In this document: positions 2,783-29,959 of the stretch, piece by piece
Position numbering within the stretch: position 1 is the stretch's first letter
Layout: the number at the start of each line of letters is the position of its first letter
Source: Spirochaetota bacterium
GTDB lineage: Bacteria > Spirochaetota > UBA4802 > JAFGJZ01
Reading direction: 5' to 3'
Assembly (NCBI GenBank): GCA_027858855.1
Contig: JAQIBV010000030.1
Coordinates: 62,001-126,000 of the forward strand
DNA length: 64,000 nucleotides
The notes under the pieces: model-generated
Seen by the model: the letters and a program-made list of their open reading frames with translations, nothing else
Databases searched by the model: none
What the model was told of the DNA's origin: nothing
Made by a program: the position numbers and the translations under genes

Positions 2783-4753
2783 TCAATCAGGTGAGCCGGC
2801 GTTAAACTGCTCAGTAAGAGGGTCGTGAATTTCTGTCTTATCCAGAATGGGGATGTCTCCCTCTACGTTTTGCACAAACCAGTTCATTTTGACTATGTGC
2901 GAGCGTGAACCGCTTTCCCCATCAGGAATACGGATAATACCATCCCGGTCAAAAACAGGCCCTTCGAATATTGAAAATTCGTCCTGAATAATCATTTTAC
3001 GCATGAACTCAATAAATTTCTGGTTTTCGCGTGAAACAAGTGTCGTTGAGTAAAAGATGTCAACAAGCCCCGAGTTTATGCCCCACCAGAAGTTTACCGG
3101 GCGTGAATCGGTTTTGCCACCTTCAAAAAACAGTTTCCAGGTATCATTGAGAATATTCGTAATTATTTTTTCGTAAAAGACTCCCCAGTGCCAAATTGGT
3201 ATTGCATAGTGCTTAAACGGTTCGTACTGCCCAGTGGCTTCATCTTTTTTTGTCGAAAACAGACCATAGGCCTTTTTCTTGCTTTTCAGTATTGGAAGAT
3301 CATCCTGGCTGATCAGGTCAACACCCATTTCGGATAACTCCTGGGCTCCCTGAAAAGAGAGTGACTCGTTTTCCCAGCGGTACATCCAGCGGACATAAAC
3401 CTTCGCTCGTGGATTAACCATGGCGGCCCCCATTGCAAAGGCGTTTATGCTGCTGATTACCTCTGGTATCGGATACGAGGCAACGTAACCTATTTTGTCG
3501 CTTTTGGTTAATGAACCTGCAAGGATACCCATTAAAAAACGGACTTCATGAATTCGACCGAAGAAGGAGCGGACATTTTTAGATGAATCCTCACCCGAAC
3601 AGTTGAAAAACTTGATCTTCGGGTACTCAATTGCAGCCTTAAGTGTTGCGTTTTTGAAAGTGGGTGATGTTGTGAAGATGACATCCAGTTTTTTATCAGC
3701 CAGCTTGCAGATATAGTCATAGGCGGTTTCGTCTTGCGGAACATCATCTATGAGTACTGTTTCGACCTTTGAGCCAAGCATGCTGATAATATGCTGCCGT
3801 CCCTGCTCCTGAGAGTTGGTCCATCCGGAGGTCTCGGCTGATTTTGCGTATATGAAGCCGATTTTGAGTTTCTTGTTTGTCATGCGCTTGGCAATTTGAT
3901 TGATGACATTCGAGCAGCCTTGTCTTGCCGGTTCGGTTATCTCGTTAACCTCGTTGCTGTTAAGCGTTTCAAATTCTGGAAATAGCTTTTTTATAAGAAC
4001 TCGATGTTTGCTTTCGGTAATCTCGTCAGGAATGCCATACAGGTCAAGAAACTGTAAAAGGGCATCGGCTGTCGTAATATCTATCCGATCTCCGTCAAGA
4101 TCATGGAAAATTCTGGAGAAGGGCATGTAGATGTTCGAAAAAAAACTCTGATATTTATTAACATTGATAAGTAGTTTTGGTTTGTATTTTGAAAGGTGCT
4201 CAAGAAGTCGGGGAAATCGTCCCGGCCGTGAGAACCAGATTGTGAATATATGGGTAATTTTGTTGAACTCAAGAAATTCGTAATAGATGGTGTTAGTCAT
4301 GTCAGAGGGGTCACGCTTGGGTATGATCCTGCGGACTTCTGCGTTGATTGAATAGGCTTTGTTGAACTTCAGTACTGAAACCCGTTTGTTACCTTCACGG
4401 ACGTAGAACCAGTTTAAATATTCATACACCGAGATGCTATCGCGTATGCCTTCCGCCAGATGCGATTCGAAGAGTGTCATCCATTTTCCGGCAAATTCAG
4501 TATTCAGCTCCTGAATGGGGTAAAAATTCCGTGAAAAAGCTGTAGCCCTTGAATGCGAGGATGTCCCGATTATCTTTTTCAATGGAATTTCGAAGGTGCC
4601 GATATTATTTTCAGAAACAATGTCGGTATGATTTATAAGCCCGTCAAGTGCGGGCAGGTAGCCCGAGCCCCCGTCGGAGACCCGCTTCATGAAATTTGTC
4701 TTCGCTGATTTTACTGCCGAACGGTATATTTCTACTGTTGTTTCGTTATACAT
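2783..4753 (-). CDS. BMP/PnrA-family protein with N-terminal cytosolic domain
   Basis: The C-terminal half (about residues 290-600) is a BMP/PnrA periplasmic-binding fold: a KLKIGFIYAK first strand, ISMLG, LDVIFTTSPTF, and a long GIDG-type ligand region including FFGRIHEVRFLMGILAG. The N-terminal 280 residues form the domain seen in long signal-less BMP proteins, with EYLNWFYVREGNKRVSVLKF and IIPKRDP. I chose ATG 4753 (656 aa) because AGGAG lies 8 bases upstream and the family starts here; an in-frame ATG at 4921 would add 56 unlike residues. With this start there is no signal peptide, so it is probably a cytoplasmic nucleoside or sugar sensor rather than a transporter lipoprotein. That role is inferred. 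Confidence 0.75.
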   Translation of the reverse strand: MYNETTVEIYRSAVKSAKTNFMKRVSDGGSGYLPALDGLINHTDIVSENNIGTFEIPLKKIIGTSSHSRATAFSRNFYPIQELNTEFAGKWMTLFESHLAEGIRDSISVYEYLNWFYVREGNKRVSVLKFNKAYSINAEVRRIIPKRDPSDMTNTIYYEFLEFNKITHIFTIWFSRPGRFPRLLEHLSKYKPKLLINVNKYQSFFSNIYMPFSRIFHDLDGDRIDITTADALLQFLDLYGIPDEITESKHRVLIKKLFPEFETLNSNEVNEITEPARQGCSNVINQIAKRMTNKKLKIGFIYAKSAETSGWTNSQEQGRQHIISMLGSKVETVLIDDVPQDETAYDYICKLADKKLDVIFTTSPTFKNATLKAAIEYPKIKFFNCSGEDSSKNVRSFFGRIHEVRFLMGILAGSLTKSDKIGYVASYPIPEVISSINAFAMGAAMVNPRAKVYVRWMYRWENESLSFQGAQELSEMGVDLISQDDLPILKSKKKAYGLFSTKKDEATGQYEPFKHYAIPIWHWGVFYEKIITNILNDTWKLFFEGGKTDSRPVNFWWGINSGLVDIFYSTTLVSRENQKFIEFMRKMIIQDEFSIFEGPVFDRDGIIRIPDGESGSRSHIVKMNWFVQNVEGDIPILDKTEIHDPLTEQFNAGSPD

Positions 4754-5189
4754 ATTTGGTACTCCTGATAACCGAAAGTAAGAACTGTACGGTCGGTAAC
4801 GGACGATATATCTGTTACCATTTGAATTGCAGGTATTGATCAGGTTGTCAACACTTTTCAAAAAGATTAGGAAGAAGTTGCGTTGGCTCAGTTTGGACCG
4901 ATCAGATAACCGGTTAAACAACCGGTTGTATCGGTCAATATGCTTTTTTTTTAGCAGGTATTATGAAGTTTTTGATTATCTGCTAATATACTATTTTTTT
5001 TTATTTACAAATAACAGTAATGAAACGATTTAGACCCTGTTGCACGTATCTCGCCGGAATGACCTCCTGATTATCCCCGTTAGAATACGTTACTGATTTC
5101 TATAAAATATTTTTTAAAGAGCTTATTGCTTTTGGTCAAATGCTTGAATTATGGAAATAAACATAAATGAAGAAGTGTAAAAGGAAATT

Positions 5190-6992
5190 ATGAAAAAGAT
5201 TAAAAATGTTGCGATTATTGCTCATGTTGACCATGGGAAAACCACCCTCATTGATGCTCTGTTGCGGCAGTCAGGCCTGTACCGAGATAACCAGACAATT
5301 GATGAACGTGTTATGGATTCAAACGATATAGAGAAGGAACGTGGTATTACGATATTTTCGAAAAATGCCTCGATTCCTTATAAAGATATAAAGATAAACA
5401 TAGTCGATACTCCAGGGCACGCCGACTTCGGGGGAGAGGTTCAACGGATTATAAAGATGGTCGATTCTGTTCTTCTGGTTGTGGATGCTTTTGAAGGCCC
5501 CATGCCTCAGACCAGATATGTTCTGAAGAAGGCGCTCTCTGAAGGGCACTGCCCGATAGTTGTTATTAACAAGATAGACCGTCCCGATGCGCAACCTGAA
5601 ACTGTTGTTGATAAGGTTTTTGACCTATTTGTCGAACTGCAGGCTGCCGATAACCAGCTTGACTTCCCGGTTATATTCGCCTCTGCGAAAGATGGTGTTG
5701 CTCACAAGGCCCTGTATGATGAGGGCAATGACATGGTTCCGCTTTTTAATGCCATAGTAGAGCATGTTAAAGAGCCAGAGGGGGATGAGTCATTACCGTT
5801 TCAGTTTCTGGTATCGGCTATTGATTATGATAATTATATCGGACGTTTGTGTACCGGTAAAATAGCTAACGGAGTTTTACGTGCGGGTGATGATGTTTGT
5901 CACATCGGTGCAGATGATGTTCAGAAGCGTTTCAGGGTAACCAAGCTTCTTGCGTATCAGGGATTGCAGCGTGTAGAGGTTGCGGAGGCCTTTGCCGGTG
6001 ATGTAGTTACAATTGCTGGAATTGATGAGATATCGCTTGGCGATACTCTTTGTGATATTGAGAATCCCATTAAGCTCGAGTCTATTTCGATTGATGAGCC
6101 GACTATAGCGATGACCTTTTCAGTAAATGATTCGCCTTTTATGGGGCGCGAGGGCGACTTTGTCAGCTCACGCCACCTGACCGAACGGTTGAACAAAGAG
6201 CTGAAGAACAATGTGAGTATGCGTGTAGAGAAGTCCCATCAGAAGGACTCATACGTGGTGAAAGGGCGTGGAGAACTGCAACTTTCCATATTGATCGAGA
6301 ATATGCGGCGTGAAGGGTATGAGTTCCAGGTTTCGCGGCCACAGGTTATTATGCAGGAAGTTGATGGAAAAAAATGCGAGCCGATTGAGCATGCTGTTAT
6401 CGATGTTGCCGATGAGTTTACAGGTGTTGTGATTGAGAAGATGGGCTTGAGAAAGGCCGAGTTGATGGGAATGAACCAGGGAATTGATGGTTACAGTCGT
6501 CTTGAATTCAAGGTGCCTGCTCGTGGTCTTATCGGTTTTCGAAATGAATTTTTAACAGAAACCAAGGGCACCGGAATTTTAAATCATTCGTTTCACAGCT
6601 ATGAACCATTTAAGGGCGCGCTTGCTTCCAGAAGCCGTGGTGTTCTGGTTGCAATGGAGGCCGGTATTTCGGCAGCCTATGCCATCTTCAACCTTCAAGA
6701 TCGAGGGATCTTTTTTATCGATCCGGGTACGGAGGTTTATGAGGGAATGATAGTTGGAGAGCATAACCGTGATAGTGACTTAGTAGTTAATATCTGTAAA
6801 ACAAAGAAGTTAACAAACATGCGAGCCTCTGGTTCTGACGAGAATGTGCGCATTGCCCCTGCAAGGAAATTTTCGCTAGAGCAGGCGCTCGAATACATTC
6901 AGGATGATGAATTGCTTGAAATAACACCACAAAATGTGCGTCTTCGCAAAAAAATTCTTAACGAAAGTAACCGCCGTAAAGCGGCAAAGTAG
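5190..6992 (+). CDS. typA: translational GTPase TypA/BipA
   Basis: The 600-residue length is normal for TypA/BipA, a ribosome-associated GTPase needed in stress and in 50S assembly. G1 is AHVDHGKTT at 11-19, the switch I/G2 threonine is in RGIT at 51-54, G3 is DTPGH at 73-77 and G4 is NKID near 126. EF-G-like domains III and V and the TypA-specific C-terminal domain follow, including GLIGFRNEFLT and an arginine-rich NVRLRKK end. An AGGA ribosome site sits 7 bases before ATG 5190. The gene stands alone, with a very strong hairpin 22 bases after its stop. Confidence 0.97.
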   Translation: MKKIKNVAIIAHVDHGKTTLIDALLRQSGLYRDNQTIDERVMDSNDIEKERGITIFSKNASIPYKDIKINIVDTPGHADFGGEVQRIIKMVDSVLLVVDAFEGPMPQTRYVLKKALSEGHCPIVVINKIDRPDAQPETVVDKVFDLFVELQAADNQLDFPVIFASAKDGVAHKALYDEGNDMVPLFNAIVEHVKEPEGDESLPFQFLVSAIDYDNYIGRLCTGKIANGVLRAGDDVCHIGADDVQKRFRVTKLLAYQGLQRVEVAEAFAGDVVTIAGIDEISLGDTLCDIENPIKLESISIDEPTIAMTFSVNDSPFMGREGDFVSSRHLTERLNKELKNNVSMRVEKSHQKDSYVVKGRGELQLSILIENMRREGYEFQVSRPQVIMQEVDGKKCEPIEHAVIDVADEFTGVVIEKMGLRKAELMGMNQGIDGYSRLEFKVPARGLIGFRNEFLTETKGTGILNHSFHSYEPFKGALASRSRGVLVAMEAGISAAYAIFNLQDRGIFFIDPGTEVYEGMIVGEHNRDSDLVVNICKTKKLTNMRASGSDENVRIAPARKFSLEQALEYIQDDELLEITPQNVRLRKKILNESNRRKAAK

Positions 6993-7014
6993 CTATAAAC
7001 ATCCATATTAACCA

Positions 7015-7062
7015 TTTTCATACAAAACAGGTAGCGGTAACGCTACCTGTTTTGTATGAAAA
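7015..7062. terminator. 22-bp perfect hairpin after typA
   Basis: Arms 7015-7036 and 7041-7062 are perfectly complementary around a GTAA loop. The core is ACAGGTAGCG/CGCTACCTGT and the outer parts are A/T rich, so either strand gives a hairpin followed by a U-rich tract. It lies just after the typA stop at 6992 and probably ends its transcript. The stem is longer than usual for an intrinsic terminator. Confidence 0.8.
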
Positions 7063-7129
7063 GCCTGAAAACCTCATATACCGATTCTAACTTCAAACTC
7101 AAAAGATACATACATAAACGTTAATTCTA

Positions 7130-7158
7130 TTGACTAATAAATGCGATAACAGAATAAT
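7130..7158 (+). promoter_or_regulatory. sigma-70-like promoter of the xylF operon
   Basis: TTGACT at 7130-7135 and AATAAT at 7153-7158 are separated by 17 bases. The expected start near 7165 falls at the first base of the long hairpin at 7166-7206, so the messenger would begin with that stem. Confidence 0.6.
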
Positions 7159-7165
7159 TATCAGA

Positions 7166-7263
7166 ATGGTTTTCCTTCCCCGCCTCTGGCGGGGAAGGAA
7201 AACCATTGATTTCTGAATACATATGCAGAAATCAATGATTTAGTTTTTCGGGGCAACCCGAAA
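7166..7263 (+). promoter_or_regulatory. structured 5' leader of xylF (three consecutive stems)
   Basis: Three inverted repeats lie end to end between the promoter and the ribosome site. A 19-bp perfect stem with a TCT loop occupies 7166-7206 (GGTTTTCC.../...GGAAAACC). An 11-bp stem pairs ATTGATTTCTG at 7205-7215 with CAGAAATCAAT near 7226-7236. A 7-bp stem TTTCGGG/CCCGAAA with a GCAA tetraloop is at 7246-7263. None has a typical U-run terminator before the gene. They may stabilise the mRNA, bind a regulator or form a cis-acting RNA switch. I do not recognise a known riboswitch class. Confidence 0.55.
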
Positions 7264-7278
7264 GAATTGGGAGTTCTA

Positions 7279-8325
7279 ATGTTGAAAAATATTAAGCCAT
7301 TTATATATCTGCTGGTTCTGTGTGGGATAGTTTTATCTCTTCTTTCATGTAACAGGAAGAGTGATCCCAAAACACTTAAGATTGGTCTTTCTATGGATAC
7401 ACTCAAAGAAGAGAGGTGGCAGAAGGACCGTGATATATTTATGGCCACAGTCAAATCAATGGGTGGTGAAATTATTGTACAGGCAGCTCAGGGTGATGAT
7501 GCAACCCAGATTTCACAGTGTGAGAACCTGATTACACAGGGTGTCGATGTCCTTGTGATCATTCCTCATAACGGCGAAGCCATGGCTCTCGCGGTGAAAA
7601 AGGCGCATGAAGCCGGTATTCCGGTTCTTGCCTATGATAGGCTTATTATGAACTGTGATCTTGATATTTATATCTCATTTGATAATGTAAAAGTGGGCGA
7701 ATTGCAGGCAACTGAAATAGTCAAGCTGGTGCCGGAAGGAAACTATGTCTACATCGGGGGGGCTCCTACTGATAATAATGCGCTCTTGTTCAGGCAGGGC
7801 GCAATGAATATTCTTCAGCCGCTTATTAAAAGGGGTGATATTAATCTTGTATTTGATCAGTTTTCGGATGATTGGTCTGCATCTGTGGCTCAGAAACACA
7901 TGGAAAACGCACTTACAAAGAATGATAACAACATTGATGCTGTTATTGCAGCAAATGATGCCACTGCCGGTGGCGCTGTTCAGGCTCTTTCCGAACAGGG
8001 GCTTGTCGGTAAGGTTCCTATTTCCGGGCAGGATGCCGACATTGCTGGTTGTATGCGGATCGTAGAGGGAACACAGTCAATGACGGTGTACAAATCCATT
8101 TCTGCCATTGCAACAGAGTCTGCAAAGGTTGCCATGATAATGGCAGAAGGCCGGGTAGTTTTAACAAACAACACCGTTAATAATAATAAAATAGATGTTC
8201 CTTCGCTTCTTTTGACCCCTGTTGCTGTAACAAAAGATAATATGAAAGAAATTGTAATTAAGGACGGTTATCATAAGCTTGAAGATGTCTATAAAAATGT
8301 ACCGAAGAACCAGTGGCAGAACTGA
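7279..8325 (+). CDS. xylF: sugar ABC transporter substrate-binding lipoprotein, XylF-like
   Basis: A 348-residue type I periplasmic binding protein of the D-xylose family. The lipoprotein signal ends at LLSC with Cys24. The mature protein follows the XylF pattern: KIGLSMDTL-EERW near residue 34, DVLVIIPHNG, the family mark YDRLI, YISFDNVKVGE, GGAPTDNNA, ANDATAGGA and SGQDADIAG. It should capture xylose or a related monosaccharide and deliver it to XylH. I chose ATG 7279 behind GGGAG at 7269-7273; an upstream in-frame TTG has no ribosome site. The stop TGA overlaps the ATG of a 53-codon frame at 8325. Confidence 0.9.
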   Translation: MLKNIKPFIYLLVLCGIVLSLLSCNRKSDPKTLKIGLSMDTLKEERWQKDRDIFMATVKSMGGEIIVQAAQGDDATQISQCENLITQGVDVLVIIPHNGEAMALAVKKAHEAGIPVLAYDRLIMNCDLDIYISFDNVKVGELQATEIVKLVPEGNYVYIGGAPTDNNALLFRQGAMNILQPLIKRGDINLVFDQFSDDWSASVAQKHMENALTKNDNNIDAVIAANDATAGGAVQALSEQGLVGKVPISGQDADIAGCMRIVEGTQSMTVYKSISAIATESAKVAMIMAEGRVVLTNNTVNNNKIDVPSLLLTPVAVTKDNMKEIVIKDGYHKLEDVYKNVPKNQWQN

Positions 8326-8486
8326 TGCATAAAGATAATGGCGGAGAAGCGTGTATATTGAGAAGTTTTTCCAAAGCAGGGAAGTTTTTTGATATGATAG
8401 GGCAGAATAGACAGACCTATTCGCAAAAAGCGATAAACCTTGCCTGCAGACCGGGTGTAATACGAGGAGGAGATGCCAATGAATAG
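8325..8486 (+). CDS. candidate 53-codon ORF between xylF and xylH
   Basis: An open frame starts at the ATG that overlaps the xylF stop (TGATG) and ends with TAG at 8484-8486, a few bases inside xylH. Both junctions look like translational coupling, and the frame fills the place where xylG is normally found. The product (MHKDNGGEAC... ending GGDANE) resembles nothing I know and has no Walker motif. It may be a small protein, a coupling leader or chance. A 53-codon gap without stops is not rare by chance, so support is weak. Confidence 0.3.
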   Translation: MHKDNGGEACILRSFSKAGKFFDMIGQNRQTYSQKAINLACRPGVIRGGDANE

Positions 8487-9651
8487 TGCAGTTTCCACGG
8501 AGAACAAGCCGTTAAATAGTAAAAAAAACTCTTTCAGCTTTAACATCCGGGACTACACTTTGATTCTCGCTCTTGTTGTCATATGGGCTTTTTTTGCAAT
8601 ATTGACAGATGGTGTGTTTATGACTTCACGTAACCTTTCGAATCTGGTGCGTGCCATGGCCGCAATTTCTGCTTTGGCGCTAGGAACATTTCTGATAATT
8701 GTTTCTGGGCATATTGATCTTTCTTCCGGTTCTGTTTGCGGCTTTACCGGCGCAATAGCCGCGATTCTTAATGTCTGGTTCGAGTGGGATACTACGGTAA
8801 GTATCGGAGCAGCTCTCGGGTTGGGAATTGTGATCGGCTTATCTCAGGGATACCTGATTGCATATCGCAAGGTTCCGGCTTTCATTGTTACTCTTGGTGG
8901 TTTGATGATATATCGTGGTCTTCTTATCGGTGTTACCAAGGGTATTACCGTTGCACCATTAAGTCCAAATTTTACAGCTATAGGACAAAGATATGTGCCC
9001 GTCTTGTGGGGGTGGGGAGGGGCCGCTGTTGTTGTTCTTGTTATATGGATTCTGGAGATGCGTAAACGCAGGAGTCATATGAAATATGGTTTTTCCGCCA
9101 AATCAACGGATAGGACGATTGCAAAATCTCTGCTTTTTACCGCTGTAATCCTCACTTTTGTGGCAGTCATGAATGATTACAGAGGAATACCAATCCCGGT
9201 TTTTATTATTCTAACTATAGTTTTTGCTTTGATTTTTCTTGTTTCGCGCACTCAGTTTGGCCGTTATGTTTTTGCCCTTGGCGGCAATGTAGATGCGGCT
9301 CGCCTTTCGGGTATTAATGTCGAGCTTAATACAATGGTGTTGTTTGTGTTGGGGGGCTTTCTTGCCAGTGTGGGTGGAATAATTCTGACTTCACGTCTGA
9401 ATGCTGCAACAACGAGTGCCGGTGATATGTATGCGTTTGACGCGATTGCCGCCTGTTTTATTGGTGGAACATCTATCAAGGGGGGAGCCGGTACGGTTCT
9501 AGGTGTTCTTGTAGGGGCTCTTGTTCTGGCCTCGCTGGATAATGGAATGAGCCTTCTGAACACAAATGCGTTCTGGCAATATGTTGTAAAGGGCGTTATT
9601 CTTGTAGCAGCCGTCTGGTTTGATATCAGTACAAGAACAAAAAAAGTCTGA
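8479..9651 (+). CDS. xylH: sugar ABC transporter permease, XylH-like
   Basis: A polytopic membrane protein of about 390 residues in the BPD_transp_2 (RbsC/XylH/AraH) family. It has about ten hydrophobic segments, the GHIDLSSGSVCGF motif near residue 75, VTLGGLMIYRG, GGNVDAARLSGI before the last loops, and GGTSIKGGAGTVLGVLVGAL near the end. It would form the homodimeric channel for the sugar bound by XylF. ATG 8479 lies 7 bases after GGAGGAG, whereas ATG 8473 is too close to that site. No ATP-binding subunit gene lies on either side, which is unusual. A G/C hairpin follows at 9715-9736. Confidence 0.9.
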   Translation: MNSAVSTENKPLNSKKNSFSFNIRDYTLILALVVIWAFFAILTDGVFMTSRNLSNLVRAMAAISALALGTFLIIVSGHIDLSSGSVCGFTGAIAAILNVWFEWDTTVSIGAALGLGIVIGLSQGYLIAYRKVPAFIVTLGGLMIYRGLLIGVTKGITVAPLSPNFTAIGQRYVPVLWGWGGAAVVVLVIWILEMRKRRSHMKYGFSAKSTDRTIAKSLLFTAVILTFVAVMNDYRGIPIPVFIILTIVFALIFLVSRTQFGRYVFALGGNVDAARLSGINVELNTMVLFVLGGFLASVGGIILTSRLNAATTSAGDMYAFDAIAACFIGGTSIKGGAGTVLGVLVGALVLASLDNGMSLLNTNAFWQYVVKGVILVAAVWFDISTRTKKV

Positions 9652-9714
9652 TGAAAATTCACAACTAAAACTGAAGACCAACAAATCTGAAGAGCTTCAA
9701 ATCTTAATCTATAT

Positions 9715-9736
9715 GCCCCCAACCCCCAAAGGGGGC
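9715..9736 (+). terminator. xylH terminator, G/C repeat copy 1
   Basis: CCCCC-AAA-GGGGG preceded by GCCCCCAA and followed by CTTTTTATT gives a classic intrinsic terminator 63 bases after xylH. The same composite sequence recurs inverted at 10026-10050, so the two copies bracket the DUF559 relic. Confidence 0.75.
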
Positions 9737-9743
9737 TTTTTAT

Positions 9744-9953
9744 TCATTTTCTTAATAATGCAGTTAGTATTTTATTAATTACCGTACTGTTTTTACTCAT
9801 GACTTCCTCAACTGAAAAACTAAGAGTTGTAATTCCAATATTTTCTAGAAATTTATCCAGATAATTATCATAATCTACCCGTTTTTTATGAATATCTCCA
9901 TCAATTTCAATAGTGAACTTCGAAAAATTACCAAAGAATTTTGAAAAAAATTT
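9744..9953 (-). pseudogene. C-terminal relic of a DUF559 endonuclease-like gene
   Basis: A minus-strand frame with no initiator runs from 9953 to a TGA at 9744-9746 (69 residues). It reads like the last part of a DUF559 (Vsr/PD-(D/E)XK-like) protein: FTIEIDGDIHKK, then YDNYLDKFLENIGITTLSF and VINKIL. This matches the family order IEiDG-H, YD-R---Le--G--vlRF and V---I. The N-terminal two thirds are missing and the usual Arg after YD is Tyr. The break coincides with a dispersed repeat beginning near 9912. It is probably dead, left by an ancestral gene between two inverted G/C hairpins. Confidence 0.6.
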
Positions 9954-9990
9954 CTAAATTTCGGAAGGTATCAACTTTTAAGTGCCTATT
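9911..9990. repeat. dispersed repeat, copy A (beside DUF559 relic)
   Basis: The core GTGAACTTCGAAAAATTACC at 9913-9932 matches copies at 11368 and 15828, with only one or two differences. A more divergent AAGGTAT...AAGTGCCTA block follows at 9966-9988, as in copy B. Here the core lies inside the reading frame of the DUF559 relic. Confidence 0.55.
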
Positions 9991-10025
9991 TTAAAAATAC
10001 TGTTTTGTGCAATAACTATTTAAAG

Positions 10026-10050
10026 TCCCCCTTTGGGGGATTTAGGGGGC
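10026..10050 (-). terminator. terminator of the ABC-AraC gene, G/C repeat copy 2
   Basis: Read on the minus strand this is GCCCCCTAAATCCCCC-AAA-GGGGGA followed by CTTT, 11 bases past the stop of the regulator gene. It is a near copy of 9715-9736 in inverse orientation. Confidence 0.7.
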
Positions 10051-10061
10051 TTAATCCAAAA

Positions 10062-11144
10062 TTAATAAAAGTTCTTCTGTTTAAAGTAAATATTCGATTT
10101 TTGTTTGCGGAAGTTCTGCGGTGATATCTGCTCTTTGCATTTAAACATTCGGGAAAAATATAGAGGGTCGTTAAAACCCAGAGTTCCGGCTATTTCGTCA
10201 ATTTTCAGATTAGTTTTAAGCAGCAGCTCTTTGGCCTTTTCTATTTTTAGTCGGATGAAATACTGTTTGGGAGAGGCACCAGTTTTGTCTTTAAACTCTT
10301 TTCGAAAAACATGGTATTTCATGCCGACCTTTTCTGCAAGAGCATTAAAGTCTATACACTCCTTCTCTAGCGATTGGCGCATGATTTTCTTAGTATTGTA
10401 AATCGGATCATAAATAGAGAGAATATTTAGCTCTTCTGATGACGTTGCCTGGTTTCGTAGCTCGTTTATACTGCGGCTCTTATGATCTGTCACCTCAACG
10501 AATCCCTCTTCTGTTAAAAAAAAGAATTTGTCTCCGATTATCTGAGACTCTTCCAGGTTTTCCGGAATATAGACAATTCCGTCACCATTTCTCTTTTTTT
10601 CGTAGATTATCTGTTCAAGAACTTCGAACTGAAACAGTGTAAGGTATCGAGAAACTTTGTAAAAAATTGATACTTTTGAGTTGAGTAGGATGATGCTGAT
10701 TAGATCAATAATGGTACGTTCGTTCAGGTTGTAATCACAGATAGGGGCACTCAGATCAATATCGATTTCGAACCTTTCTAGCAAGAGGTGAATGTCCCGA
10801 AGAAGAGCCTTGCGTCTTATGAGCCCGTAGCGTGAGTAGTGTTTGCCACCCTTGAGAGCTATGTTGTCAAATCCACTCAGGTTCATGAAGAGCGACTTGT
10901 TCTGCCATGCAATGCCGATTTGATTGCCGATGTGGTTGCTGATTACCCGCTCTCCTCGAAAGAAGACCTCTCCGCTGTCGCGTTTTTCCTGATCGGCCAG
11001 TACGCCTACAAAGAGTCTTGAACGTGAGTCATTATCCGATACAACACAGCAGATTTCGTTAGAGTGCACCACAAGGCTTGACTGATTAAAGCAGAGTGCA
11101 TTGTCAACATACTTTGAAAGATTTTTTATTTTCAACAAGATCAT
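10062..11144 (-). CDS. AraC-family regulator with N-terminal degenerate sugar-ABC ATPase domain
   Basis: About 360 residues in two parts. Residues 1-215 follow the layout of a sugar ABC ATPase half (MglA/XylG type): KIKNLSK start, DSGEVFFRG, GIAWQNKSLFMNLSGFDNIAL matching the Q-loop and ENI region, NLNERTIIDLISIILLNSKV matching the signature helix, and LTLFQFEVLEQII plus YIPENLEE matching the D- and H-loop regions. The Walker A Gly-Lys, Walker B Asp-Glu and H-loop His are all absent, so it should not hydrolyse ATP. Residues 255-355 are an AraC/XylS double helix-turn-helix with IDEIAGTLGFNDPLYFSRMFK. The start at 11144 has AGGA 8 bases upstream. It probably regulates xylFH or the MFS gene. Confidence 0.85.
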   Translation of the reverse strand: MILLKIKNLSKYVDNALCFNQSSLVVHSNEICCVVSDNDSRSRLFVGVLADQEKRDSGEVFFRGERVISNHIGNQIGIAWQNKSLFMNLSGFDNIALKGGKHYSRYGLIRRKALLRDIHLLLERFEIDIDLSAPICDYNLNERTIIDLISIILLNSKVSIFYKVSRYLTLFQFEVLEQIIYEKKRNGDGIVYIPENLEESQIIGDKFFFLTEEGFVEVTDHKSRSINELRNQATSSEELNILSIYDPIYNTKKIMRQSLEKECIDFNALAEKVGMKYHVFRKEFKDKTGASPKQYFIRLKIEKAKELLLKTNLKIDEIAGTLGFNDPLYFSRMFKCKEQISPQNFRKQKSNIYFKQKNFY

Positions 11145-11367
11145 TAAGAAATCCTTGAAATGGAATTTGGTTTTCAAGAACTTTTATCAGGATGCTTCTG
11201 GAAAATCTCATTCCTCATAAAACAGGGTTTTCCAAGCAAGGTCATAGTAAGATAGTAGTTTTGAGAATTCCCAATAAATCAGTGTTCTTGTTTGTGGGCG
11301 TAATACCATATCGTTACAGAGGAATTTATTTTGTCCATACATTTGTTGTTTTGAGAGATTTTAGAAT

Positions 11368-11478
11368 AGGGAACTTCGAAAAATTACCATGTTTGAGAAG
11401 GTAACATCGTTTGAGTGCATATTAATGATAATTTTTCTCGCAAAGCTTGAAAAAGCGTAAAATATTTGCGCTTTTTCA
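11368..11478. repeat. dispersed repeat, copy B
   Basis: It begins with AGGGAACTTCGAAAAATTACC-type core at 11368-11388, passes AAGGTAACATCGTTTGAGTGC and ATTAATGATAATTTTTCTCGCAAAGC, and ends in the hairpin TGAAAAAGCG/CGCTTTTTCA (11449-11458 and 11469-11478). Its reverse complement aligns over most of its length with 30075-30185. The terminal hairpin may also serve as the terminator of the minus-strand MFS gene that ends at 11493. Confidence 0.6.
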
Positions 11479-11492
11479 GATTCGTTTCGTTA

Positions 11493-12674
11493 TCATAGCT
11501 TCTCGGATCTGTAGTAGGCGATTATCAGCAAAACAGCCAGAAACGGCAGTAGATATAGCCCACGTGAAAGGCCCAGATGTTCACTCAGTGTGCCGGCAAG
11601 AAAGGGCAGCAGGGATGCGCCGAAGTTTGTGCTTGCAAAAAGTGTGCCGGTTGCCAGGTCGATCTCGCCGGTATGGCGACGGATGACACTGTTCTGTAAA
11701 ATGGGAAAGAGTCCTGAAAGTGTCAGACCGGTCAGGGGAATAAAAATATAGTGTCCATAAAAGCTTATGGGATAAATAAATGCAGGTACGATTGTTAAAA
11801 GAGTCGCTATCGAAAGAATTGCGAAGAGCTTATCTTGGCGAATATGGTGAGACAGAACAGCAGATATTAACCTTCCACCTGTAAAAAGGGCAAAGAAGAA
11901 AACCATAACCGACGAGACGTGCTCTTTATCCTTGCCAAGAAAGATTTCCAGAAAAGTAGGCGCCCAGTTTATTATGGAAAATTCCAACCCTACATAACAG
12001 ATTGCAGATATTGCGTAAAAGAGCATCAATTTCGAAGCAATTAGCGGAAGTCTGAATTTTGGTTTTCCAGCTGAATTAGTTTCAACTTTTTCTGCTTTGT
12101 TATTATTGTTTGGAAAGGCCGAAAAGATAAATAGAACGACAATTAGCATCGAAAGCGTAGAAAAGGTGAGGTAGACATAGCGCCAGGAACCAGAAAAGTC
12201 GAGTATCCGTTTTGTGGTTAACAGTGCTGTGATTGCACCTGCACCAAAGAAGAAGTGTAACAGATGGATAGAACTTTCGCGAAAACGGTAGGCATGTGTG
12301 TGAAAGAAGGCGGATATACCGATGTGCGAACCTAAAATTGTTATAAGAGTGGCGAATCCCAGAAAAAAACTTACAGAAAGAAAGACCGGATAGCTAGGAG
12401 AGACCGCCAGCGCAACCTGCAGAAGTGTTAGAAGCAGTGTTCCGCAAATTAAAATCAGTTTTCTGTTGAACATCTTGTAAAGATAGCCGCCGAAAAAGGC
12501 ACCGGTCAGTGCAGGGATTAGAGGAACCAAAAACATTATCCCAGAGGTCTGATAGTTTATAGAGAAATCTCGGCTGATCTCTGGCAGCAGATATCCGCGG
12601 ATGGCGATATTGATACCCAGAAAGAATTGTAACAGATAGGCTGTAAAGACAAGAAGCAAGTCGCGTTTTTTCAT
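11493..12674 (-). CDS. MFS transporter, sugar/FucP-like
   Basis: A 393-residue, 12-TM major facilitator. The first helix is LLLVFTAYLLQFFLGINIAIRG, helix 2-3 is MFLVPLIPALTGAFFGGYLYKMFNRK with the typical G-x3-D/N-R/K loop, and a mid-loop of about 30 hydrophilic residues (NNNNKAEKVE) separates the two halves. The pattern resembles sugar:H+ symporters of the FucP/GlcP group, but the substrate cannot be read. It lies next to xylFH and the ABC-AraC regulator, which supports sugar import. The start ATG 12674 is preceded by a GTAGGT site and, 19 bases further up, by a palindrome. Confidence 0.8.
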   Translation of the reverse strand: MKKRDLLLVFTAYLLQFFLGINIAIRGYLLPEISRDFSINYQTSGIMFLVPLIPALTGAFFGGYLYKMFNRKLILICGTLLLTLLQVALAVSPSYPVFLSVSFFLGFATLITILGSHIGISAFFHTHAYRFRESSIHLLHFFFGAGAITALLTTKRILDFSGSWRYVYLTFSTLSMLIVVLFIFSAFPNNNNKAEKVETNSAGKPKFRLPLIASKLMLFYAISAICYVGLEFSIINWAPTFLEIFLGKDKEHVSSVMVFFFALFTGGRLISAVLSHHIRQDKLFAILSIATLLTIVPAFIYPISFYGHYIFIPLTGLTLSGLFPILQNSVIRRHTGEIDLATGTLFASTNFGASLLPFLAGTLSEHLGLSRGLYLLPFLAVLLIIAYYRSEKL

Positions 12675-12692
12675 TGATTACCTACAATAGGG

Positions 12693-12728
12693 CAAGTTTC
12701 TGTGCTGATCATTCAGCATAGAAACTTG
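12693..12728. promoter_or_regulatory. palindrome upstream of MFS gene
   Basis: CAAGTTTCTGTGCTGA and TCAGCATAGAAACTTG form 16-bp arms around TCAT with one G-T mismatch. It sits 19 bases upstream of the MFS start codon, so it is either a leader hairpin or an operator. Confidence 0.5.
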
Positions 12729-12741
12729 ATTAAAATTTTAA

Positions 12742-12761
12742 CTATTAGGTGATCCTAATAG
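12742..12761. promoter_or_regulatory. perfect 8-bp-arm palindrome, likely operator
   Basis: CTATTAGG-TGAT-CCTAATAG, 68 bases upstream of the MFS start. Size and symmetry fit a dimeric regulator site such as a LacI- or GntR-type protein; none is encoded nearby. Confidence 0.4.
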
Positions 12762-13215
12762 GGAGTCGAAAGTGGTATCTGTTAACAGAATCGTATTGTT
12801 CTCTTGAGCAAGTAATTTATTCAGGAAATACTGTCCAGTATAAGTATACCATCAAATCCGATTTTTTAAAATAATAGTGGAGTTTTTAACAGGCACAAAA
12901 GCAGGCCCTATATGTCAGCATAGTTGAAGCTTCTAATAACAAGGAGGCTACATAAATATCAATTACATCCCATCTTCATATTAATTCTAAACCTTGGTAT
13001 TCGTTGCGTATAGTAACGGAGTGATATATGATTGCAAGTGCCAATCGACATGAGTAGTGAAAACGCTACGTCGAAAGCCAGCGGAAAGCGCTATCCATTA
13101 CCGAGGGCACAGAAACCGATAATAGAAGATTCAGCAACAGACGGAAAGATAGAAATACTTTGGAACAACTCGCTGCGCATTTTCTTCTTGCCTTAAAAAT
13201 AATAACGCATACAGT
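12762..13215. other. gene-free stretch
   Basis: About 450 bases between the MFS operator region and the Rpn relic. Only one short frame deserves mention: ATG 13050 to TAA 13194-13196, 48 codons (MSSENATSKA... ending RIFFLP), with no ribosome site. It may be part of the decayed neighbour. Nothing else is recognisable. Confidence 0.5.
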
Positions 13216-13831
13216 TTGTCAATGATACATGGACACGACATTCGCTACAAAAAACTCTTTTCCAATGTGGAGCTGCTTGAGCAGCTTGTTCGGACATTTG
13301 TTGCCGAGCCGTTTGTTGCGGATCTTGATTTCTCTGAAGCTGTCAAGATAGACAAATCGTTTATCAGCGCAATTTATACCCTCGTTCCGGTACTATAAGA
13401 TAGCAGAGAATGAATTTGATCAGACATATCTACTATCGCTCAAGAACGCGGTATCGGCACTGTTTTATGTGGAAAACATGGGAAAAGAAGAAATTGTTAG
13501 CAAGCTTGATGTTATTTTTAAGATAATGGAAAAAGAGAAGCCGGATTTACTGAAGTTGATTACCTTGTTTATACGCAACTATTTTCAAGATGATGAGGAT
13601 TTGACCGATGTAATGAATCGGAAAAACGTAGAAGAAAAGGAGGCAAAAGAGATGCTTTCACAGACAATAGAACGATGGAAAGATGAACTCGTAACTGAGG
13701 GAATAGGTCAGGGCGAACGCCATAAAGCAATAGAGAGTGCCCGCAGCATGCTGAATGATGGCATGCCAGTGCAGCAGATTGCAAAATATACAGGATTATC
13801 CGTTGATGAAATAGAATCGTTGAAGATCTAA
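13216..13831 (+). pseudogene. decayed Rpn-family (PD-(D/E)XK) nuclease/transposase-like gene
   Basis: Two pieces of one family protein lie in different frames. The first (13216-13398) encodes GHDIRYKKLFSN...FVADLDFS and ends at DKSFIS, the usual start of Rpn/YhgA-like proteins. From about 13365 another frame reads FIPSFRYYKIAENEFD and then KNAVSALFYVENM, continuing to a C-terminus typical of the family (QQIAKYTGLSVDEIESLKI) with the stop at 13829-13831. The central 100 or so residues, including the nuclease core, are missing, and there is a frame change at the junction. The last 120 codons could still be translated alone from ATG 13469. Such genes promote recombination when intact. Confidence 0.7.
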
Positions 13832-26722: not shown

Positions 26723-28828
26723 TTAACTGATAGTAATCCCGTGGCCAAAAGATTCATAGGTATTCGAGTCATGGGTGATGAGTATAACCTGGCGCTTCTG
26801 AGATATCTTTTTTAATGCCGGCAGTAAAAGATCAATCCTTTTTTTATCCATAAACATTGCAGGTTCATCTGCGAAAAGTGGAATAATCGGCTTTTTTAGA
26901 GTCATGAAGTCATTTAATGAAATTATCAATGATACATTAAAGAAGTGGGCGTGAACGGGTGAAAGAGTAATAGTGCTCTCTTTATGAAGCATGGACTTAA
27001 AATCCTCTTCAGAAAGTACCTCGGCAGATCCACAGAGTGATAAAAAGTGAGCATATGCGGTTCTGCTGTATTCATCAAAAACAAGTCTCTCTTTTTCCTG
27101 AATGACAGTTTCAAAGGTCTCTGTGATAAAAGTGCAACTATTAATCTTTTTTTGATGCTTTTCAAGTTTGTCGCTGATTGTTTCACGGCGGTTTGAAACA
27201 TCACTGTTGTCGGCCTTTTCGTTATTAAACTGATCTAATTCGCTGTTAATCTGTGAAAGCAGATCAGAGAAGTGTGTACTCTTCTCTTTAATGGTATCGA
27301 TCTGTCTTTGGAAGTCGGCAGCTATAGCGTCATATGAGAAGTCTGACAATGAGCTGTATTTTATGCCAGCTGTTTCGCAGTCAGACCTGAACGATCGCTC
27401 TATCTCTTTGATACAATGGGATGCCAGTTTAATTTTTTTTGAATAAAAGTCATTGTAATCTGCTTTTGCTGACTTCTTCATGTCGCTGATTTCCGAACGC
27501 ATCTCTTCAAAACTGCTATATTCCTGAAAAAATTGAAGAATAAGTTCGTAAAGTTCGGTGCTGTTGCTTTCACCGATATTTATATTGGTTTTATTCAAAA
27601 GAGTCTTCAACTGCAAGTCGTGATGAGTCTTTTGTTCATAAAGCTCTTCGGTGCAATACCTTTTCATGCGAAAAAAAAGTGCCAAAAGTCCCCAACATGC
27701 AGACGTGATAGCGGCAATAAAAAAATAGAGGGCAAGTTGAAAACCGGGTATGCCCAGGAAAAAGAGATCTCTTTGAGTATAGAAAATTATGGAAATAATA
27801 AGAGGAACTGCACTGAGGGTGATAGTTGTCTTTTTATATTTTTGTCTGACCTGCTCACCGGTCTCGTTTTTCTTGTTAATTGAGTTTATAATATCCTGAA
27901 TTGTAGTGAAAGTTGTTCTGATTTCGGGTAGGAATTTTTTCTGTTGATCGTCAAGAGCTAAAAAGAGCGGATACTGTCTCCTGATCAGGGCGACCATTTT
28001 ACCTATTGACTCCTCCAATTCCTTTTCTGTTAAATAATCTTTTTCAAGAGCCTCTTTTTCGGCAACCATCTTTGAGTAATCGCATTGTTTTTGTTTCAGC
28101 GTTTTTAGTAGATCCAGTCGTGAGGTAATTGATTCAATTTCATGTTCCAGAGCCTTATGTTCATCAAAGAGTTGCGTGTGTTCTTCTTTTATTTTTGTGA
28201 ATTTAGAGATACGAAGATTTCTGATCTCAATTTCATGGTCAACTTCTTTCAGCTCTCTCTTGATTCTGTTATAGTCATTTATCAGAGGGTTGTCGTCTGT
28301 TTTCATGTATTCAGATAGAAATGCACACTGCTGATAAAAATTACTATTATCAGAAAAAAGCAGGGGAAGAACAGTTTTGTAATCAGGAACTGCAACTTTG
28401 CCTGAAACCGGTGAGGTAATAAAAGATGTGTTTTTAACGGTATCGGCTGTAACCTTACTCAAAAAATGGAATAGATCTGTGTCATAATTAAAAATGGTTT
28501 CCCTGCGTTCTTCATGGCTCTCATCTTTTGAACAGGTAACTGTTTTTGAAGTTGTGAAGTTGTGGAGTTCGATACCACCCTTGTCTCTGATTATCCGGTA
28601 ATCGGTGTTATTATATTTAAATGTTATGTTAAGGTGTATCTGCTGCACCTGATTATTTTTAAAAAAATCAGGTGAAAGCAGGTCAAACACTGTTTCGATA
28701 ATGGCTTCAATTAGAATTGTTTTTCCACTACCACTCTCTCCATAAAGAATGTTTACATCATCTTTAAAGTTAAGAATAAGGTTATTATAAAGCGAACCGT
28801 GGGTTGCTATGCATTGTATAAGCTGCAT
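26723..28828 (-). CDS. membrane-inserted SbcC/YhaN-like ATPase
   Basis: 701 residues with the Rad50/SbcC plan. Walker A is GESGSGKT at 30-37, followed by long coiled coils (about 180-310 and 405-590). Between them are two TM helices (about 340-395) where Rad50 has its zinc hook, the layout seen in YhaN-type proteins. Walker B is PLFADEP near 650 and the H-loop is ITHDS. The ABC signature motif is hard to find: the expected place reads TLSPVHAHFFNVSLII, with no LSGG. It should dimerise on ATP and sit on the membrane. The start ATG 28828 lies inside the SbcD-like gene (22-base overlap), with GAGGGGG upstream. The gene order matches yhaO-yhaN. Confidence 0.85.
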   Translation of the reverse strand: MQLIQCIATHGSLYNNLILNFKDDVNILYGESGSGKTILIEAIIETVFDLLSPDFFKNNQVQQIHLNITFKYNNTDYRIIRDKGGIELHNFTTSKTVTCSKDESHEERRETIFNYDTDLFHFLSKVTADTVKNTSFITSPVSGKVAVPDYKTVLPLLFSDNSNFYQQCAFLSEYMKTDDNPLINDYNRIKRELKEVDHEIEIRNLRISKFTKIKEEHTQLFDEHKALEHEIESITSRLDLLKTLKQKQCDYSKMVAEKEALEKDYLTEKELEESIGKMVALIRRQYPLFLALDDQQKKFLPEIRTTFTTIQDIINSINKKNETGEQVRQKYKKTTITLSAVPLIISIIFYTQRDLFFLGIPGFQLALYFFIAAITSACWGLLALFFRMKRYCTEELYEQKTHHDLQLKTLLNKTNINIGESNSTELYELILQFFQEYSSFEEMRSEISDMKKSAKADYNDFYSKKIKLASHCIKEIERSFRSDCETAGIKYSSLSDFSYDAIAADFQRQIDTIKEKSTHFSDLLSQINSELDQFNNEKADNSDVSNRRETISDKLEKHQKKINSCTFITETFETVIQEKERLVFDEYSRTAYAHFLSLCGSAEVLSEEDFKSMLHKESTITLSPVHAHFFNVSLIISLNDFMTLKKPIIPLFADEPAMFMDKKRIDLLLPALKKISQKRQVILITHDSNTYESFGHGITIS

Positions 28829-29883
28829 ATATCCCCCTCGCTCAGGTCGTCCCTTGTGTTCATTCTGTTTAAAAGCTGGGCGAGAAACTCTTTATCCAGG
28901 TTTTCCATGCTGCCTGAATTTTTTTTATTCTCCATTTTACGGTAAAACATGCCACGGATAGAATTTTCATCTTTAAATTTGTTAATCAGTGATGAAACGG
29001 ATAGGTCGTACCTGTTGATCGTTTCAAGATGGAAAAACTGATCACGTATCTCTTCTATTGAGTGCTCTTTCCAGATATCTGGCCCTGTTAAAATTAAACG
29101 TACTATTTTGTTTTTACCGGAGAATCCTGTGCATTCGTTAAGTAGCTCTGTTTCATTTTTATGTTTCGAACAGTCAATCTGATGTTCCTGGTATTCAAGG
29201 GTATTGACACAAAATCGTGACAACTTGTCAATTTTCTCTTTGTCAATTTCGATTGAAGCAGCATAGCGGGGGCCCAGTTCAGATCGTGTTTTAGGTTCTG
29301 ACGAACCGCATTGTACGCTTTTAATTCTGCCATTATGCCTGTAAATTTTAAACGGATGATTTCCGCCCAGGGCATAAAAATCAAGTTCCGGATTTTTTGA
29401 ATTTTCTGAAGGTAAAAATGGCTTCTGATCGGCTGCAATTGTAAATCGAGCGTTTAAAAGCCCGATATGAATACCCTCGTCCTCAGTTTTTTTTATTACT
29501 TCGATATCCTCAAAGGAGTGAATGTCGCTACCGTATATGATAATCGTTTCATCATTGACTGTATGTTTGACATGTGATCCATCTTGCAGAGTAACAACTC
29601 CGTTGTCTTCAAGTCTTTTGCAATATTCGAGTTCAGTCGGTGATGGAGAGATAAAAACAGCAGTCTTCTCTTTGCTTAAAGAGTCAAAAAGAGTTGTAAC
29701 CGAATCGACCAATTCCTGAGAAATTTCTGCACCTGAAAACAGGTTGCCACCTATTAGCAATATATCGTGATGTACACCGATAGAGCAAATTTTTTCAAGA
29801 GTAAGCAGGCGGTGCCGGTCTGTAACCGGCAGTTCCGGTTCAGATCCCAGTTGCAGGTCAGAAATAAAAACTATTTTTACCAT
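28807..29883 (-). CDS. SbcD/YhaO-like protein with decayed phosphoesterase motifs
   Basis: 358 residues beginning like Mre11/SbcD (VKIVFISDLQLGSEPELP). The catalytic motifs are changed: motif I is D-L-Q instead of D-x-H; motif II is LLIGGNLFSG, with Asn for the metal-bridging Asp; motif III reads ISPSPTELEY instead of GNHD; and the GHxH motif is ALGGNHPFK. Few metal ligands survive, so nuclease activity is unlikely. The C-terminal 100 residues (KIVRLILTGPDIWKE, TINRYDLSVSSL) resemble the DNA-binding and capping parts of SbcD. It precedes and overlaps the SbcC-like ATPase gene, so it probably acts as its non-catalytic partner. Confidence 0.8.
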   Translation of the reverse strand: MVKIVFISDLQLGSEPELPVTDRHRLLTLEKICSIGVHHDILLIGGNLFSGAEISQELVDSVTTLFDSLSKEKTAVFISPSPTELEYCKRLEDNGVVTLQDGSHVKHTVNDETIIIYGSDIHSFEDIEVIKKTEDEGIHIGLLNARFTIAADQKPFLPSENSKNPELDFYALGGNHPFKIYRHNGRIKSVQCGSSEPKTRSELGPRYAASIEIDKEKIDKLSRFCVNTLEYQEHQIDCSKHKNETELLNECTGFSGKNKIVRLILTGPDIWKEHSIEEIRDQFFHLETINRYDLSVSSLINKFKDENSIRGMFYRKMENKKNSGSMENLDKEFLAQLLNRMNTRDDLSEGDICSLYNA

Positions 29884-29935
29884 TCTGTACTATTTACTCC
29901 TAGGACTCTCTATTAATTATTTTTTAACTAGGTTG

Positions 29936-29959
29936 CCTTTGCTGGACGACCAGCAAAGG
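29936..29959. terminator. 10-bp hairpin CCTTTGCTGG/CCAGCAAAGG
   Basis: A perfect inverted repeat around ACGA at the left border of the repeat-rich intergenic stretch. It lies in front of the SbcD-like gene on the minus strand, so it is unlikely to be a terminator for that gene; it may belong to the repeat element. Confidence 0.4.

Follow-up and report, generated by a model that had tools for sequence, protein, structure and literature searches.

The gene at 10062..11144 (−) of the window, a stretch of 64,000 nucleotides, encodes a regulator in which an AraC-type DNA-binding domain is joined to a domain derived from the N-terminal half of a CUT2 sugar ABC ATPase. All of the catalytic motifs of this domain, the pseudo-NBD, have been lost, and the architecture stands beside CUT2 importers at two independent loci. 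We propose, with a probability of roughly 40%, that the protein is an AraC-type one-component regulator of CUT2 sugar uptake, and that its nucleotide-independent pseudo-NBD senses the importer complex, presumably by docking on it. The window is part of a MAG of the Spirochaetes (G000), whose nearest named relative is Zod_Metabat.857.

Results

Architecture and ancestry of the regulator

The ATG of the regulator gene, at 11144, is preceded by AAGGA at 11156–11152, seven bases 5′ of it. The features of the gene are as follows.

10062..11144 (−), regulator gene, 360 residues, pseudo-NBD plus AraC DNA-binding domain (open reading frame and translation)
10443..11144 (−), residues 1–234, pseudo-NBD from the N-half of a CUT2 ATPase (NCBIfam, N-half profile, alignment, model, PDB matches)
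11013..11039 (−), residues 36–44, lost Walker A, SDNDSRSRL for GENGAGKST (alignment)
10656..10673 (−), residues 158–163, lost Walker B, DE to YK (alignment; Y162 and K/R163 common to three relatives)
10560..10571 (−), residues 192–195, lost H-loop, YIPE for YISH (alignment; YIPE invariant in three relatives)
10374..10442 (−), residues 235–257, conserved linker LNILSIYDPIYNTKKIM (identity to the G164 copy)
10101..10373 (−), residues 258–348, AraC double helix-turn-helix (HTH_18, 1.7e-19)

The Pfam model HTH_18 matches the C-terminal double helix-turn-helix across all 80 model positions with E = 1.7e-19. The attachment of an AraC-type domain, as claimed in the original prediction, is thus correct, and by the sequence of this domain the protein is a member of the AraC/XylS family. 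The linker that precedes it shares 13 of 23 residues with the regulator of G164, a genome from another class of the phylum, compared with 69 of 215 in the N domain.

Residues 1–222 resemble the N-terminal half of the CUT2 sugar ABC ATPases. The NCBIfam models of these ATPases match from model position 1 to about 222: YtfR positions 3–221 fall on regulator residues 1–221 with E = 3.9e-18, and the values for RbsA, PRK13549 (xylose), and XylG are 2.3e-16, 5.1e-15, and 3.2e-13. Against a profile of 8 CUT2 N-halves the N-terminal part scores 65.6 bits, while the best of 500 shuffled copies reaches 3.8 bits and the C-half profile gives just 1.9 bits. These scores place the origin of the domain in the N-half of a CUT2 ATPase and rule out descent from the C-half. 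The same C-half score shows that a second NBD half is absent from the chain, where the AraC domain is found instead. The description of the N-terminal part as following the whole course of an RbsA/XylG-type ATPase half therefore stands. Pfam ABC_tran does not match the regulator at E ≤ 1, and the first 260 residues have no Pfam match, so routine annotation would miss the ABC-like domain. In a tree, the three known regulators (those of G000, the same-genus genome G001, and G164) form a single long-branched clade (100/99), and the CUT2 subfamily from which they arose is not distinguishable in that tree.

Structure prediction, which had been suggested as a check, also returned an ABC fold for the N-terminal part. 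The AlphaFold model has a mean pLDDT of 90 with the elements of a full ABC fold in order; however, the 32-row alignment behind it includes ABC and AraC homologues, which guide the model, so it expresses compatibility with the ABC fold more than independent proof. The best PDB matches of the model are ABC ATPases, 4rvc (1.7e-14) and LptB (5.2e-14). A model built on just the three regulator sequences was of poor quality (pLDDT 52) and was set aside.

Lost catalytic motifs and selection

The regulators were aligned with 17 CUT2 N-halves for reading of the motifs. The Walker A lysine, the Walker B acids, and the H-loop histidine are replaced in all three relatives, in agreement with what had been read from the single sequence. 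The replacements D162Y, E163K/R, E172Q, and H195E are common to the three, including the distant G164 copy. The shared Y162, K/R163, Q172, and E195 look like a surface that has been rebuilt and is functional, not like the outcome of random decay. The Q-loop glutamine is retained in the regulators of this genus and lost in the G164 copy, in which the initial strands of the ABC domain are also missing. As the catalytic motifs and the second half are both absent, the protein is, on its sequence, not a CUT2 ATPase. With Walker A, Walker B, and the H-loop all lost, the pseudo-NBD is unlikely to sense nucleotide directly, one of the possibilities originally raised.

The regulators of G000 and G001 are 83% identical. 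Between them, synonymous sites are saturated, while nonsynonymous differences per site (pN) amount to 0.107 for the N domain and 0.110 for the C domain; the corresponding values are 0.14 for xylF and 0.20 for xylH. The low pN at saturated synonymous sites shows that the dead domain is kept by selection, and by this measure purifying selection on the pseudo-NBD is as strong as on the DNA-binding domain.

Distribution

The architecture was found in 3 of about 400 Spirochaetota genomes, G000, G001, and G164. Two largely overlapping draws of about 393 Spirochaetota genomes, together with the classes of G000 and G164, gave no further full-length copies, and a seed-based genome scan recovered the same-genus G001 copy alone. 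There were no relatives in viral contigs, and in plasmids there was no place covering 80% of the query. G003, a 96% complete genome of the same family, has neither a match to the regulator nor a close orphan ATPase or a lone permease.

The G164 copy has 37% identity and begins 6 bases past a gene for a CE2-type esterase. It lies within a rhamnose operon, and the genes after it on that strand encode a complete CUT2 ATPase in which the motifs are intact, along with two permeases, a rhamnose-binding protein of the RhaS type, and an α-L-rhamnosidase of family GH106. The architecture is thus rare within Spirochaetota, and both of its independent loci belong to CUT2 sugar uptake, xylFH in the genus of the window and a rhamnose importer in G164. 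The search for the two-domain architecture that had been recommended thus favors, within Spirochaetota, the association with transporters.

Neighborhood of the regulator gene

The genes around the regulator in the window are the following.

7267..8325 (+), xylF, xylose-binding lipoprotein (TIGR02634, 420.5 bits, cut-off 389.6)
8473..9651 (+), xylH-like CUT2 permease with the coupling-loop-like motif GGNVDAARLSGI (BPD_transp_2, 2.5e-30; motif)
11493..12674 (−), MFS transporter gene, same-strand upstream neighbor of the regulator (MFS_1, 5e-26; order kept in G001)

The permease scores 360 bits with the GguB model, under that model's cut-off of 450. Gene order in G001 is the same as in G000: MFS, regulator, xylH, xylF, typA. 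The original prediction placed the regulator beside a xylF–xylH pair lacking its ATPase gene. This is right in that no ATPase gene adjoins xylFH in either G000 or G001, but the regulator is convergent with xylFH and outside their transcription unit, and an orphan CUT2 ATPase is encoded elsewhere in both genomes. This ATPase of 499 residues (in G000 at about 28454–29953 of G000:C18) has Walker A, Walker B, and the H-loop, and is encoded after a gene for a DeoR-type regulator. The gene that comes next in G001 lies on the opposite strand, leaving the ATPase without a permease of its own; the G000 contig ends about 350 bases past the gene, so this argument rests on the G001 context. With the orphan counted, ATPases and permease sets number 4 and 4 in G000 and 5 and 5 in G001. 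It is likely that XylFH is energized in trans by the orphan ATPase. Given the convergent orientation and the balanced count, the fusion probably does not replace a missing subunit. The proposed tie to the missing xylG is not supported: the orphan ATPase can serve XylFH in G000 and G001, and the operon that holds the G164 relative encodes an ATPase that is complete and intact.

Several other features were seen. In G000 and G001 alike, the DeoR-type regulator and orphan ATPase genes and a chvE-gguA-gguB operon are divergently oriented (L080:9670–11954 (+) and L091:5777–8061 (+), 70% identity). On G000:C63 (L113:4234–8870), the genes of a different kind of sugar importer, with a binding protein and two permeases, are closely followed by a xylose isomerase gene (TIGR02630, 725 bits); xylose catabolism is thus encoded away from xylFH. 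At window positions 2783–4921 (−) is a gene for a protein of 712 residues with a Bmp/PnrA substrate-binding domain (residues 352–646) after about 350 residues without a Pfam match.

Noncoding sequences

Footprinting detected no conserved site in the sequences 5′ of xylF, of the MFS gene, or of the regulator gene, and there are no Rfam elements in window positions 6900–13600. A shared motif of 17–19 bp was considered as a binding site and rejected, since it is part of a dispersed, genus-specific repeat. The repeat, TGGTAATTTTTCGAAGTTC, is partly palindromic and occurs once on each side of the regulator gene, at 9915–9933 (−) and 11371–11389 (−). With up to 2 mismatches allowed, its 17-base core has 75 copies in G000 and 118 in G001, for which the reversed-pattern control gave 0 and 1, and just 1 in same-family G003. 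It looks like a genus-specific MITE-like element. Two features of the region 5′ of xylF (6993–7266), a strong hairpin, GGTTTTCCTTCCCCGCC...GGCGGGGAAGGAAAACC, and a second palindrome, are absent in G001.

Discussion

What does the pseudo-NBD sense? The regulator probably acts on the adjacent CUT2 sugar-uptake genes. Since its relatives adjoin sugar importers, it may sense the importer itself rather than free sugar, although we hold this with less confidence than the action on adjacent genes. In ABC importers, NBDs read the conformation of the permease via its coupling loop, and we count the coupling-loop-like motif retained by XylH in favor of importer sensing. Contact could be made by docking of the pseudo-NBD on the cytoplasmic coupling loops of the permease, which is possible, or by pairing with a real ATPase. 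The quantity of regulator bound would differ between idling and transporting importers; uptake activity would thereby set the share free for DNA, and the change would reach the helix-turn-helix through the conserved linker. A fuller version, in which a transcription factor evolved from the motor subunit of an importer senses transport by occupying the motor's own docking site or pairing at it, and is directly titrated by idle importers, is speculative, and we think it less likely than not. The absence of the first strands and of the Q-loop glutamine from the G164 copy weakens the case for a strict copy of the ATPase–permease contact, and the negative footprinting result also counts against importer sensing. 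The link to importers rests on the two independent loci, and in the genus of the window the regulator may control the MFS gene instead. A precedent for an activator controlled by an importer is found in E. coli, where MalFGK2 holds MalT while idle (PMC10427625).

The main rival to importer sensing is that the pseudo-NBD is an ordinary small-molecule sensor and dimerization domain, binding a cytoplasmic sugar or metabolite, whose transporter ancestry is mere history and which makes no contact with a transporter. We regard this as a serious possibility, though one that we would not bet on. A ligand-binding N-terminal sensor is the usual mode of AraC-family regulators such as AraC and RhaS, and a former catalytic face rebuilt with conserved residues would fit a new pocket or dimer interface as well. 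It leaves unexplained why a CUT2-derived domain should be found with CUT2 importers at both loci, although any sugar regulator would sit there.

Two other explanations are much less probable. In one, XylF, XylH, and the regulator would together constitute a receptor and not a transporter, with XylF bringing xylose, XylH changing shape, and the regulator, docked by its pseudo-NBD, acting as the sole cytoplasmic partner. That xylFH have no adjoining ATPase gene in G000 or G001 would suit this arrangement, but the orphan ATPase with its three motifs balances the ATPase and permease sets in both, the G164 importer is complete with its own ATPase, and the regulator is not co-transcribed with xylFH; we consider it improbable. 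In the other, the N-terminal part is left over from a gene fusion and is decaying without any function today, and only the AraC part matters. The loss of every nucleotide motif, and of the first strands in G164, is what such decay might leave. However, the pN of 0.107 against saturated synonymous change comes close to refuting it, and family-specific residues are retained across two classes, so we give it hardly any weight. Importer sensing remains our preferred reading. If it is true, it would show how a part of a transporter can become a sensor, and a single protein would link import activity to transcription. Pfam reports just an AraC regulator here, and similar pseudo-ATPase sensors may hide among AraC proteins with 'unknown' N-termini.

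The original prediction knew of no described system of this form, and our limited search of open-access text likewise found no described AraC–ABC fusion. The main text of a survey of 106 companion domains of AraC/XylS proteins has no mention of ABC (PMC5882156). A pseudo-NBD sensor appears to be undescribed in the open-access text searched.

The regulator shares with AraC/XylS regulators such as AraC, RhaS, and RhaR the C-terminal double helix-turn-helix, the single chain, and the adjacent sugar uptake genes, but the sensor of AraC and RhaS is a cupin-like arm, whereas here it is an ABC-type pseudo-NBD. E. coli XylR also places an AraC-type DNA-binding domain in a xylose locus. Its sensor is a LacI-type domain that binds xylose. 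The XylR structure (PDB 4fe4) matches regulator residues 264–352 only, within the helix-turn-helix part, and Pfam finds no Peripla_BP match to indicate a periplasmic-binding-protein-like sensor; by these sequence criteria the regulator is not of the E. coli XylR type. With the CUT2 ATPases RbsA, XylG, YtfR, and AraG, the N domain is homologous to the N-terminal NBD half over its whole length, but the regulator lacks the catalytic motifs and the second NBD half and has a DNA-binding domain. The comparison with MalK and MalT made in the original prediction applies to the possible logic alone, in that the state of an importer, MalK/MalFGK2, controls an activator (PMC10427625). MalT is a STAND ATPase bound by live MalK, without kinship to the ABC part described here, whereas in the present case it is the regulator itself that carries the ATPase-shaped domain.
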